From Phytophthora colocasiae (lineage: Eukaryota > Oomycota > Peronosporomycetes > Peronosporales > Peronosporaceae): a stretch of DNA of 64,000 nt. Positions within the stretch are counted from its first letter, which is position 1; every line of letters begins with the position of its first letter. Where the stretch lies: assembly GCA_018806915.1 (NCBI GenBank), contig JAGKQI010000047.1, positions 496,001 to 560,000 on the forward strand. Direction: 5' to 3'. This document shows, in pieces, positions 9,043 to 17,039 of this stretch. Both the position numbers and the translations under genes were made by a program. The notes below the pieces were generated by a model. That model saw only the letters and a program-made list of their open reading frames with translations, made no database searches and was not told the origin of the DNA.

Positions 9043-10512
9043 TTACGGTATAACCTGCTCCTGCTGGGCAAAGTACTGGAAAGAAGCTGGGGCTGTTCCA
9101 TCCTGCGCGGCCTGCTGCTGCTGGAATGCCACTGTCTGTTCCATCTTGATCCCCATTCGGGCCGGAAGCGGAGGAAGCGCGAAAGATCCACCGTGAAGTC
9201 GTTCTACCTGAGGGCTTCCGTTCAAGATCATGGCCATGGCCGGTGGCTGAGCCTCCTCTGCATTCCAAGATCCATTGCTCATACTGTCGTCGCTTGCAGG
9301 TGTCATCGCAGTGTTACTTGATGCCACACTCGTGGTCGGACTCAGCATCGATGTACCAGGCTTGTCAGATGCAGATACGAACTGCGGTTGAGTCTGTATC
9401 GGAGCTGGGTGATGATCCTTCAGCATCCCATCGGCATCGAAGGGGAATCGCCCAGCAAATTTCAATAAATACTTCTGAGCGTGAGTACGCGTCTGCACTG
9501 CACTGCGCGTCATGACCACCTGCGCCACACGGCGCCAGTCTTTCCCGTACAAGCGGATACCTTCGAGGAAAGCGGCGTGCTCTTCGCTGGTCCACCGTCC
9601 TCCTTTCGAAGGACCAGTGGTTGAAGTACTTGAAGTCGGGACTGGAGTACCTACCGCCAAATTCTCCATTTTGACAGTAGGTGTGACCGGATAGCTCGGA
9701 GGCGAAGCTTGACCATCAGAACTGGGTCGGGGAGACAGCTTCGGATTGGAAGGAGCGTGGGGGATAGCACGCACAGTGTGAACGGGAGGTTCACAGTGCG
9801 GCAGCGACATCTTAGGACGCATGGAGCTGTCCTTGTTTGGGTCCGCAATGACGGACTCACGCTTCATCTTCAAGTTGACAATCTGGTCCCGATACTTTTC
9901 CCGTTCACTGCCGTGAGCACTGAGCATTGCAGCCTCCATGGACGCGATACTCTTGGAGAGCGATCGGATCTGACGGTGCGGCCACCTCTTGATACCGTTG
10001 CGACGGCAGATCTTCTTCATGAGGGTGATGCAAATGCCAAAGTCCTTCGCCACGTCGATGATGGGTCGGTCAAAGTGGGCACGCAGCTCCTCAATTGAGA
10101 TATGTTTCGTGACTAAGCTCTTGACGCGGTTGCTTTCGTTTCGGAAACGATGGCTGAAACCCGCGTCGTCCGTGAAGTCGAGTTTGCTGCCTTTCGGGCC
10201 ATCAAAATTGATTTGCTGCACCCGATGAACCTTGCCGACGCCGCTAACAGCTCGACGATGTGAGGCTTCTTCTTCCTCATCGGAGTCGCCCATGTCCTCT
10301 CCGTCCGAGTCAGGGGATCTAGACTCTGCAGAACCTGAGAATCCCTTGCTCAGACTAGTCAGGATCATGGCTGTCTCCTCAGGATTAAGGCCCGGAGTAT
10401 CCGTCTTGGACTCATCTGCTTGAACACCACCACAGATGCCGTCGGTCTTGGCCGGTGGCGTCTCCTGCTCACCTGTCGCCGCGCGGCCCTCGGCGTCGTA
10501 TGCCATACCCAT
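9043..10512 (-). CDS. RWP-RK plus SHAQKYF-type Myb transcription factor
   Basis: Single-exon protein of 489 aa, start ATG at 10512. Two DNA-binding domains are visible. An RWP-RK domain spans about 137-187: helix ISIEELRAHFDRPIIDVAKD, then KKICRRNGIKRWPHRQI, with RWPHRQ at 176-181. A single Myb repeat spans about 303-354: GGRWTSEEHAAFLEGIRLYGKDW ... VQTRTHAQKYLLKF, the plant/protist SHAQKYF class in a THAQKYL variant. The N terminus carries an acidic patch (DSDGEDMGDSDEEEE); the C terminus is Ser/Pro/Gln-rich and low complexity, as in activation regions. Likely a nuclear regulator; targets unknown. The two-domain combination is unusual. Confidence 0.85.
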   Translation of the reverse strand: MGMAYDAEGRAATGEQETPPAKTDGICGGVQADESKTDTPGLNPEETAMILTSLSKGFSGSAESRSPDSDGEDMGDSDEEEEASHRRAVSGVGKVHRVQQINFDGPKGSKLDFTDDAGFSHRFRNESNRVKSLVTKHISIEELRAHFDRPIIDVAKDFGICITLMKKICRRNGIKRWPHRQIRSLSKSIASMEAAMLSAHGSEREKYRDQIVNLKMKRESVIADPNKDSSMRPKMSLPHCEPPVHTVRAIPHAPSNPKLSPRPSSDGQASPPSYPVTPTVKMENLAVGTPVPTSSTSTTGPSKGGRWTSEEHAAFLEGIRLYGKDWRRVAQVVMTRSAVQTRTHAQKYLLKFAGRFPFDADGMLKDHHPAPIQTQPQFVSASDKPGTSMLSPTTSVASSNTAMTPASDDSMSNGSWNAEEAQPPAMAMILNGSPQVERLHGGSFALPPLPARMGIKMEQTVAFQQQQAAQDGTAPASFQYFAQQEQVIP

Positions 10513-14028: not shown

Positions 14029-17000
14029 TCATGTACATATTTCCAGGTTGTGCTGTCCTACGAAGGCTGTTTCCTTTGGCGTGTGTGGGAAAAGGAACCT
14101 GAGCACATTGACACTCAAGATCAACTCTTGCAACGTGGAGAAAGTCACACCATTACTCCCAGCTCCACCATTTGCCTCCCCTTGCAGAGCAACGAACCAT
14201 CCACTACGCTCTGGCTGCCAAGTAACGGGCACAAACTGCACGTATTGATCGTCACGTACGTAGGCAATCACCAAGCAACGCACACGCGTCTCACTGAAGC
14301 GCAGCAAGAACGTTCCTGGCGGCGCACGCTCCAGCATACTCACGCAAGCACCTTTGGACAGGAATCCATGAAGCAGTCGCGGTTCCGTGTGAGGCCACAG
14401 TGTGGAATACAGGATACAGTCAACAAGTGGACGAAACCAAGCCCAAAAGGCTGCGAACATGCGTAGACTCACTGCACCACCACGTTGTGCCGGTGCGACA
14501 CTGCCAGGGCCCCAAATGAGCGAGCTTTTACTCAGAAAATCGATGCTGCGCGTAGATAACGGGCGCTTGGCAGCTTCTCCTTTCAGCTTGGAGGCGAAGA
14601 AGCAGCTTACTTGAGGCGCTACCCAGTCCAACGGGATGTCTTTGAGTTCCTGCATCTGACGCACAACCGCCGCGGAATAACCGTCTCCCTTCGAACTGAG
14701 ATAGTCAGGCAGCGCTGCGTTAATAACCACAGCTCGAGCCCACACCAAACTGCCACCTTCGCTCTGGATGATCGGCCTGACGTGGTCTGCCACTTTGAGA
14801 AGACACAACTGTTGAAGTGACGTACTTGGTGCCGTAATGGATCCGGTCAAACTCGGTTCACTTCGAGACGAGATGAGCGGGTGGAGTTTCGGTGGGAAAT
14901 CAGTGCTTTTGAATCCGTCGCTAATCGGTTTATGACTTGATGGGACTTCCAGCGACGATTTGGCTGTGAGCACGTCGGAATGGGAAGCTATAGGTTTCAT
15001 CCGTCGTAGAGCAGCCTCGTGAGCGCTTAGTCGGTGCTGATACTCCACTTCTTCCTCGATACTAGTACAAGAGATACCATGGTGATGATGGTGATGTTCA
15101 TGCGAATGGGAGTAGCATCCGTCCATGGAATTCGCCTTCGTTAGAGATAGCATTTCCTGATCTTGTCGCTGATGATTTAAGCCGCAATCCAAGCTCGTAA
15201 CGTCAACTTTGCCCATCCAAAGCCCTGTATTCACCGACGGTATGATGTAATTGATGAACTCAGACTGATCCAGTTCCATGTCTTTATTTTCCAAGAATTG
15301 TGACACCTGGACAAGTAGGAGCACAGTTAGGTACACATTTGCAAGAATGAAACAACATAATGATCGAGAAATACCGCGCAAATAGTTCGAGGATGGCCTC
15401 GCAGACTCTTGATAATTGGGTGTTCACCAAACGCTTCAAGATCGGTGCTGCCGCCCATTTCATGAGCTTTAATTTTCCGTGGGGCACGAAGAGTGAACAG
15501 TAAGGCTGCATCTGCCGGCGGAAGAGGCCCCACGGAGATAATCTTCTCTCCTACGCCATCCAAAACACCAAATTTCCCATCACCCGTCAGTAGTAGCGCT
15601 AGTGAGTTCACACGTCTCAATAACATGGCAACAATAGCACGGAATCTCGAGTTCTGTCGTTGGGATCGGTTGCATCCATCCAATATCAACAGAAAACAGC
15701 TCCCACCTCCTTGACTTTCAGTCTCGCACCGCTGACGAGCTTGTTCCGCCAGTTCATCGAGTGACGTCGCGTGAAGACCCAAACACTTAGAAAACCTTGG
15801 TACAAGTGCTGATAAGTCGAGTTCATGTTGTTTACACGAATCTTCACCCTCACTTTCGGTATTCAATCGAAGATAAAATATATGACGAAACACTCGTCGT
15901 TCTGTGGCATATTGCGCACACTGTAGTGCCACCTCCGTCTTGCCAATGCCACGTTCGCCCGTGATACTCACAAGCCTCGCCCCTTCCACTAAAGCTTTAT
16001 ACACTTGATGAACTTCCAGTGATCTCCCAACAAACACCTCCGCTACCGTATCACACTCGTTAACTGTCATGTGTCCTCCCTTCCTCCCACCCATATCAGT
16101 CTCGATGCAATCTCCCATCGGCACATCTCGAAACAAAGCATCATTATGATCTCCATCTCCAAGTAACTTAAACTCCGACGGTCTTCCAGAGGCTCCTGAA
16201 CTGCTAGCAACTGCAATATCTGCTTGAACTCGTCCGATCTGGAAACTTTTAGCAACGGAATGTCCTGCAAACAACGCCGTGTAAAAGGCTTTCGCGAATT
16301 CCATCGCTTTCCTGTCCAGAACCTTCTCCTCTTTCGACACCACCACGACATGGGGCACCCCGGCACTCACGAAAGCTTGAGCCACACTCTCCGAGTGACA
16401 AGCACTCACAAAAACCAACTGTAACGGAACCTTGGGTTTATCATGGACTGGAGGTGGGGATAAGGCCACCCAGCCTCGTTCCACCCTGTGACTGGTAACT
16501 GCAAGCCCCGACGTGGCGTCACTACTGCTGCTCGAATCGCTACTGCTGCTATAACTAGAGCTCGAATCACTGCTGCTACTACTGGATTCTGTATTTCGCC
16601 GTCGGTTTTGTCGATTTCTTACCTTTTTGTCGCGTTTTCGTCTTGGACGACGTCGACTTTCAGCGCCTCCTGCAAGCAGCAGGTCCTGCAGCTCCTGCTG
16701 GGAGACGAACTGCGCCTCGCCCTTGCGCGTCTCGAAGATCACTTGGCCCGGTACTCCATGGCCAGAGAAGTGAAGTGCACGACATCCGAACGACAAAACT
16801 TTCCGGAACGCGTGCAGATCGGCCACCTCCGAGTGCCAAGCGAGACGGCGACCGGATTCCCTTAATGTTTCGAGCAGGAGATGACGCTCCGCTTTAACTT
16901 CGATGAGCTCCACCGCTTCCAACCCACTGGAAGAACCGTTGGCGTCTGCGTGTGGACTGAGACTGCGCCAGTTATCGCCCGAGCGGCGACGCACCACCAG

Positions 17001-17039
17001 CGGAGACGAGTGCAGGTGCGCGAATATTGGCGACGGCAT
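14029..17039 (-). CDS. CHAT protease - NB-ARC/STAND ATPase - STAT-like SH2 fusion
   Basis: Two exons, complement(15375..17039) and complement(14029..15306), joined by a 68-bp intron (GTATTT...CCTAAC...GTCCAG, phase 0); predicted 980 aa. CHAT domain (caspase-like): ALHFSGHG with catalytic His94 and LVFVSACHS with catalytic Cys214, separated by an Arg-rich then poly-Ser insertion (about 130-175). ATPase: EVFVGR at 335-339, Walker A GERGIGKT at 361-368, Walker B CFLLILDG at 448-455, and LRGHPRTI at 546-552 in place of the NB-ARC GLPL motif. Exon 2 has a His-rich patch (HEHHHHHHG), then an SH2 domain (about 855-962) with GTFLLRFSETR, phosphotyrosine-binding Arg at 891, most like STAT SH2. Likely a nucleotide-gated signalling protease recruited by phosphotyrosine; this is inference from the domains. 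There may be another 5' exon (see 17040-17566). Confidence 0.85.

Follow-up and report, generated by a model that had tools for sequence, protein, structure and literature searches.

The stretch analysed here, called the window in the following, comprises 64,000 nucleotides of Phytophthora colocasiae (contig JAGKQI010000047.1, positions 496,001 to 560,000) and belongs to a 92.5-Mb genome of 105 contigs. Between positions 14029 and 17039, its minus strand carries a two-exon gene for a putative CHAT protease joined to a STAND-type ATPase and a STAT-like SH2 domain (Table 1). A preliminary description made from the letters of the stretch had proposed a phase-0 intron and a 980-amino-acid (aa) product, and splicing in silico reproduced both. 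Removal of positions 15307-15374 gives 980 aa followed by a stop codon, the intron begins with GTATTT and ends with TGTCCAG, each exon holds a whole number of codons, and the frame ends after 570 aa if it is left unspliced. All motifs listed in that description were found in the spliced protein, with His94 and Cys214 at the residues it gave: the His of GHG at 94, the Cys of SACHS at 214, GERGIGKT at 361-368, FLLILD at 449-454, GHP at 548-550 and GTFLLRFSE at 886-894.

Table 1. Features of the CHAT-STAND-SH2 gene in window coordinates.
Feature	Position	Strand	Evidence or remark
Exon 1, 555 codons, encoding the CHAT protease with its Ser/Arg-rich insert and the larger part of the STAND ATPase	15375..17039	-	
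Intron, 68 bp, GT..AG, phase 0	15307..15374	-	Models of 10 relatives diverge at the same residue, then stop
Exon 2, 425 codons and stop, encoding the rest of STAND, a disordered linker rich in His, the STAT-type linker domain and SH2	14029..15306	-	
CHAT caspase-like domain, residues ~1-305, split by Ser/Arg-rich insert	16125..17039	-	Pfam, residues, fold
Codon of catalytic His94	16758..16760	-	
Codon of catalytic Cys214	16398..16400	-	
Insert of low complexity within CHAT, rich in Ser/Arg, residues 129-197	16449..16655	-	
STAND-type P-loop ATPase as far as encoded by exon 1, starting at residue ~325	15375..16067	-	Runs to ~599 in exon 2; limits from ortholog model
Walker A, GERGIGKT, residues 361-368	15936..15959	-	
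Walker B, FLLILD, residues 449-454	15678..15695	-	
STAT-type, mostly helical linker domain, residues ~708-855	14407..14850	-	Fold
SH2, residues 868-951, with Arg891 (codon 14299-14301) and Lys873	14119..14370	-	

Comparison with related proteins supports the joining of both exons. A junction motif was detected in 43 of 56 database relatives, and 31 of these 43 run through the junction into exon-2 sequence. Ten models end just past it, as they would if a CHAT-STAND gene lay next to a separate SH2 gene or if the joined frame were an annotation artefact. However, all ten diverge at the same residue with a valine, a GTN codon as expected of a phase-0 donor, and end within 12-75 residues. One of them, P0016 from Phytophthora citrophthora (98% identity over 57% of the query), is a model of 570 aa that reads into the intron like the unspliced frame of the window and so loses the SH2 half. 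The exceptions at the junction are P0012, which has a different one, and P0020, which skips a segment. Moreover, CHAT, NACHT and SH2 are all above cut-off in P0049, labelled as an MMETSP transcript, and in P0061 (944 aa, contig of 145,870 bases), and CHAT and SH2 are above cut-off in P0043 (821 aa, contig of 77,318 bases) with the ATPase below; judged from the kind of source, P0061 and P0043 would be uninterrupted genomic frames. Taken together, sequence comparison and models indicate that CHAT, STAND and SH2 reside in one product, and the explanation by two genes is largely refuted and, in our judgement, barely credible.

The C-terminus of the 980-aa protein is a provisional prediction. Its tail reads VGQHNLEICT (14029-14061, minus strand), many relatives end in AFTLQA or similar (TLQA-type), and a search for a terminal intron that would restore their C-terminus gave no convincing alternative acceptor.

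For the N-terminal domain, profile (Pfam CHAT, PF12770: 41.7 bits on exon 1, cut-off 24), fold and the His94/Cys214 dyad agree, as previously proposed, on membership in the CHAT family, from which proteolysis is predicted. The fold match is bacterial SAVED-CHAT (PDB 8tl0), an entry whose title describes an activated filament, and a six-frame search of the genome found CHAT independently at window 16242-16424. The Ser/Arg-rich insert is not present in the three Saprolegniales rows compared (P0027, P0031, P0038).

The central ATPase, together with the N-terminal part, matched the folds of ZAR1, Apaf-1, CED-4 and SAVED-CHAT, which are death and defence proteins. With its P-loop, Walker B motif and Apaf-1/NB-ARC-type fold, it bears out the STAND ATPase of the preliminary description; release by nucleotide exchange, also suggested there, we only infer. 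PF13191 or PF05729 is assigned to many orthologs in the database listing. In the ortholog model, STAND fold matches stop at about residue 592 and disorder follows. A Pfam search of the 980-aa protein at E up to 1, in which filters remove most matches above about 0.1, yielded no LRR, WD40, TPR or ankyrin sensor, and by this predicted domain content the protein falls outside the NLRs in the strict sense, which carry a C-terminal repeat sensor.

The place of such a sensor is taken by a linker domain and an SH2 domain, which are separated from the STAND part by a disordered tether of about 130 residues. Pfam SH2 (PF00017) scored 24.5 bits on exon 2 and 22.5 bits on the joined protein (cut-off 21), and the six-frame genome search recovered the domain independently at window 14119-14370. 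The fold comparison supports an SH2 fold at about residues 855-962, the absence of which the preliminary description had named among the outcomes that would refute it. Linker and SH2 match STATs in fold, in line with the earlier label 'STAT-like'; the STAT-type linker domain in front of the SH2 was absent from that account. A chance SH2 signature is ruled out by sequence match, residue conservation and fold. Membership among the STATs was rejected as well, since no STAT domain beyond linker and SH2 was found: at E up to 1, Pfam gave none but SH2, and no STAT coiled-coil or DNA-binding domain. According to the available portion of PMC12470777, STAT-type SH2 domains are without strands E and F. 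The 980-aa protein has no tyrosine after residue 910, and Y910 itself is a tyrosine in 6 of 37 rows. Self-binding through a tyrosine is excluded, on the predicted sequence, for the tail of this protein; relatives with a C-terminal tyrosine stand outside that exclusion.

Annotated relatives were found in Phytophthora, Peronospora, Nothophytophthora, Pythium, Globisporangium, Lagenidium, Aphanomyces, Saprolegnia, Achlya and Thraustotheca. Some records are partial (for example, P0012, P0026 and P0040 end before the SH2), and orthologs across oomycetes keep the architecture. Identity to P0038 of Saprolegnia diclina amounts to 62% for CHAT, 49% for STAND, 48% for SH2 and 13% for the disordered linker, and identity to P0006 of P. 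infestans to 93% for CHAT and 89% for SH2.

Residues were counted in 61 aligned rows (the window protein, P0001-P0050, P0056, P0057, P0059-P0065 and P0075), taking those with a letter in the respective column; P0051-P0055 and the remaining proteins of the distant-alignment search were left out. These counts are not independent, since fragmentary gene models are frequent among the rows and species occur more than once. His94 is kept in 56 of 57 rows (the exception, P0013, is apparently a model without its N-terminus), Cys214 in 56 of 56, the P-loop Lys in 58 of 58 and the Walker B Asp in 57 of 58 (the exception, P0019, is a model with a skipped segment). In the SH2 domain, R891 and S893 occur in all 44 rows that reach them. 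At K873, the Lys of GFLSK, which we take to be equivalent to the Lys that contacts phosphotyrosine in STAT1 structures, there are 30 Lys, 13 Arg and a gap in P0021. All five key residues (CHAT His and Cys, P-loop Lys, Walker B Asp, SH2 Arg) are combined in 37 of the 61 rows; P0056 is among them by alignment only, having Pfam CHAT and neither ATPase nor SH2, and P0048 and P0050 show no SH2 in the precomputed Pfam listing.

The distant-alignment search added P0057-P0065, which list CHAT, NACHT and SH2 and share 39-53% identity with P0049 where they align, and further CHAT-STAND proteins with TPR. In P0097, P0103, P0128 and P0129, a CHAT-STAND core is combined with LRR, with kinase and ankyrin, or with PDZ. 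For tree building, the CHAT-STAND core was excised by a motif rule. An earlier tree of 38 rows requires four changes of the SH2 label; it scored the truncated rows P0047, P0066, P0072 and P0082 as lacking SH2 and included the very long branch P0056. In a tree of 34 cores, from which P0056, P0051, P0094 and P0130 were omitted and in which the four truncated rows were set aside, 15 SH2 rows lie on one side (support 80/75, not starred), and 14 of these group with the four truncated rows at 97/97. From these sequences, a single ancient gain of SH2 appears likely.

Six-frame domain searches detected at least three CHAT loci and at least four SH2 loci in the genome. The two domains coincide at one locus, a count that rests on two domain searches and on lower bounds. 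Another CHAT locus is a single open frame of 904 aa with the order FHA-CHAT-STAND (L001:181-2895 / L014:2353-5067, genome C50), scoring 35.7 for FHA (cut-off 20.7), 32.5 for CHAT (24) and 21.9 for NACHT (below 26.7); the third is a CHAT-NACHT-TPR open frame of 1375 aa (L013:1581-5708, genome C84). At a further SH2 locus, frames for TIR_2, NPHP3_N plus HTH_TANC1, and SH2 follow each other in this order on the plus strand (L012:2095-5478, genome C34:2166094-2169477; SH2 frame L005:1375-1866), with 35.5 for TIR_2 (cut-off 28) and 33.2 for SH2 (21). In the annotated oomycete ortholog P0144 (1110 aa), all four domains are above cut-off in one protein, and proteins of this type occur across oomycetes; to judge from such orthologs, the frames probably form one gene here. 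By eye, P0144 seems to contain another TIR-like stretch, in degenerate form. Of the last two SH2 loci (L004:1375-2124 and L006:1-3180, minus strand), one lies beside a TPR frame and one within a frame of 2139 aa that shows a weak IQ motif. With the FHA-CHAT and TIR-STAND-SH2 loci, STAND proteins account for two of the four SH2 loci and phosphopeptide readers sit on two of the three CHAT loci, always counted on lower-bound lists. This suggests a design principle and not a single odd fusion. Among the PADLOC anti-phage families, neither of the orthologs P0001 and P0049 had a match, and P0144 matched weakly in four rows of TIR type.

The link to tyrosine kinases drawn in the preliminary description is plausible. 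A kinase with the TK-type motif HRDLAARN (L016:982-3024, minus strand, genome C54) was the only place in the genome that the DNA pattern matched exactly; it reached 209.7 bits for PK_Tyr_Ser-Thr, a profile whose range includes TKL kinases as well. The genome also has a protein tyrosine phosphatase, at 196.2 bits. For P. infestans, the available text of the kinome study predicts two tyrosine kinases and only four proteins with a plausible SH2 (PMC3019232).

Among known systems, SAVED-CHAT (8tl0), activated by cA3 according to the excerpt of PMC11229360, and the fungal CHAT receptors, which the accessible part of PMC12881547 describes as able to activate a gasdermin, share the CHAT fold, the His/Cys dyad and a protease fused to a sensing part. 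In contrast to them, the sensor here is a STAT-type linker-SH2 and not SAVED, TPR, WD40 or ankyrin, and no gasdermin, to which the fungal receptors are tied, was found in this genome with PF04598. Apaf-1, CED-4, ZAR1 and NRC proteins have the P-loop ATPase fold, conserved Walker A/B, GHP and an N-terminal effector in common with our protein, whose protease is however built in instead of recruited and in which neither a repeat sensor nor a winged helix was evident. STAT6 and Dictyostelium STATa resemble it in fold and sequence of linker and SH2, including GTFLLRFS and the phosphotyrosine Arg; here these parts are fused to CHAT-STAND, with no other STAT domain in Pfam and a tail free of tyrosine. 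Like the present protein, the P0144 type is a STAND protein with a C-terminal SH2 found across oomycetes, but it has TIR as effector instead of CHAT, another STAND subfamily and a TANC1-like winged helix. The statement that no described protein joins all three domains held for the literature, as no description of CHAT with SH2, with or without NACHT, was found in open-licence PMC full text, a corpus with subscription journals mostly outside. In protein databases, orthologs are already entered, under names such as 'SH2 domain-containing protein' or 'CHAT domain-containing protein'. For STAND NTPases with SH2, the portions of the open-licence literature at hand mention SH2 among the C-terminal domains of the TRADD-N group, and no CHAT. 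The parts are of known kinds; what is new, within the literature searched, is how they are combined and what serves as sensor.

Our preferred reading, which we hold to be an even call, is a conserved oomycete receptor-protease in which CHAT is held by the STAND ATPase and a tethered STAT-type linker-SH2 occupies the usual sensor place, so that phosphotyrosine would trigger clustering. Sequence and fold prediction show an intact catalytic dyad, P-loop, Walker B motif and phosphotyrosine Arg, with conservation across oomycetes. STAND ATPases oligomerise. The SH2 would bind a tyrosine-phosphorylated partner in trans, partner binding would concentrate receptor-protease molecules, the ATPase would then oligomerise, and clustered CHAT domains would turn active and cleave a substrate, with a stress or regulated-cell-death response as the probable outcome. 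Recruitment followed by oligomerisation is the simplest model because the SH2 lies in the place of a repeat sensor on a loose tether, its pocket residues are kept and no tyrosine follows residue 910.

Several points weigh against this reading. Phosphotyrosine binding is a prediction from the pocket residues. AAA_16 (31.6 bits, cut-off 32.6), NACHT (18.7, cut-off 26.7) and NB-ARC (14, cut-off 23.5) all stayed below threshold; we therefore call the ATPase STAND-type by its modelled fold, outside these three Pfam families by cut-off. No winged-helix/MHD part is evident in the fold matches, which come from an ortholog model of the larger protein, and nucleotide-driven switching may thus differ from that of NLRs. 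The long tether gives no sign of a fixed autoinhibitory contact, and the column of F961 holds Tyr in 15 and Phe in 18 of 37 rows. Gasdermin PF04598 had no match in the genome at E up to 1, in a search without a positive control over cut-off among 14 control genomes (only Escherichia coli matched, below cut-off) and which fungal-type, bacterial-type or divergent gasdermins may escape. Finally, the slow evolution as one ortholog suits housekeeping signalling as well as defence.

The last point leads to the main rival, a housekeeping or developmental protease that its SH2 would bring to a phosphorylated scaffold at transitions of sporulation, zoospores or the cell cycle, with limited cuts and no death. 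The single CHAT plus SH2 locus, the identities of CHAT and SH2 to P0038 and P0006 and the ordinary character of the five neighbouring window genes scanned all fit it, yet the fold matches are death and defence proteins, CHAT receptors work in fungal cell death as far as the excerpts of PMC12881547 and PMC11138114 report, and related TIR and FHA designs occur in the same genome. We consider this rival unlikely, though it deserves serious attention. A more improbable explanation is that the SH2 no longer reads phosphotyrosine and is structural or autoinhibitory, the trigger lying elsewhere (nucleotide, another ligand or the Ser-rich insert). In STAND receptors it is usually the C-terminal part that keeps the protein inactive, and oomycete tyrosine kinases and SH2 proteins are few (two and four in P. 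infestans, within the available text of PMC3019232); against this stand the invariant R891 and S893, the Lys or Arg at position 873 in 43 of 44 rows and the long disordered tether parting SH2 from STAND. Self-recognition, raised in the preliminary description, is disfavoured by the single conserved ortholog. A fast-evolving allorecognition gene like the fungal het loci could draw on the CHAT protein predicted at an incompatibility locus, hetB of Aspergillus fumigatus (PMC11138114, in the portion available), but we regard it as very unlikely given that orthologs across oomycetes keep the same architecture and that no repeat sensor was found.

If the receptor-protease reading is true, the STAT-type linker-SH2 module would be at work outside transcription factors. 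Phosphotyrosine signalling and NLR/caspase-like death machinery, usually thought separate, would be joined in a lineage far from animals, one of the few oomycete SH2 proteins would gain a function, and regulated cell death in water moulds would have a testable trigger. With its conservation across oomycetes, the architecture suggests that a protease of the cell-death type could be under the direct control of kinase signals, and it opens the control of a caspase-like protease by phosphotyrosine to direct tests. Only tentatively do we extend this to a class of STAND receptors in oomycetes, and probably other protists, with an SH2 or FHA sensor and a CHAT or TIR effector, which may monitor the cell's own kinase signalling and not foreign molecules. 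In that case, CHAT-STAND-SH2 would wire tyrosine phosphorylation directly to a caspase-like protease, and the STAT-type linker-SH2 would be a module of ancient origin that also serves outside transcription.

Elsewhere in the window, one open frame on the minus strand (9043-10512) combines RWP-RK and Myb DNA-binding domains, a pairing that is to our knowledge unusual.
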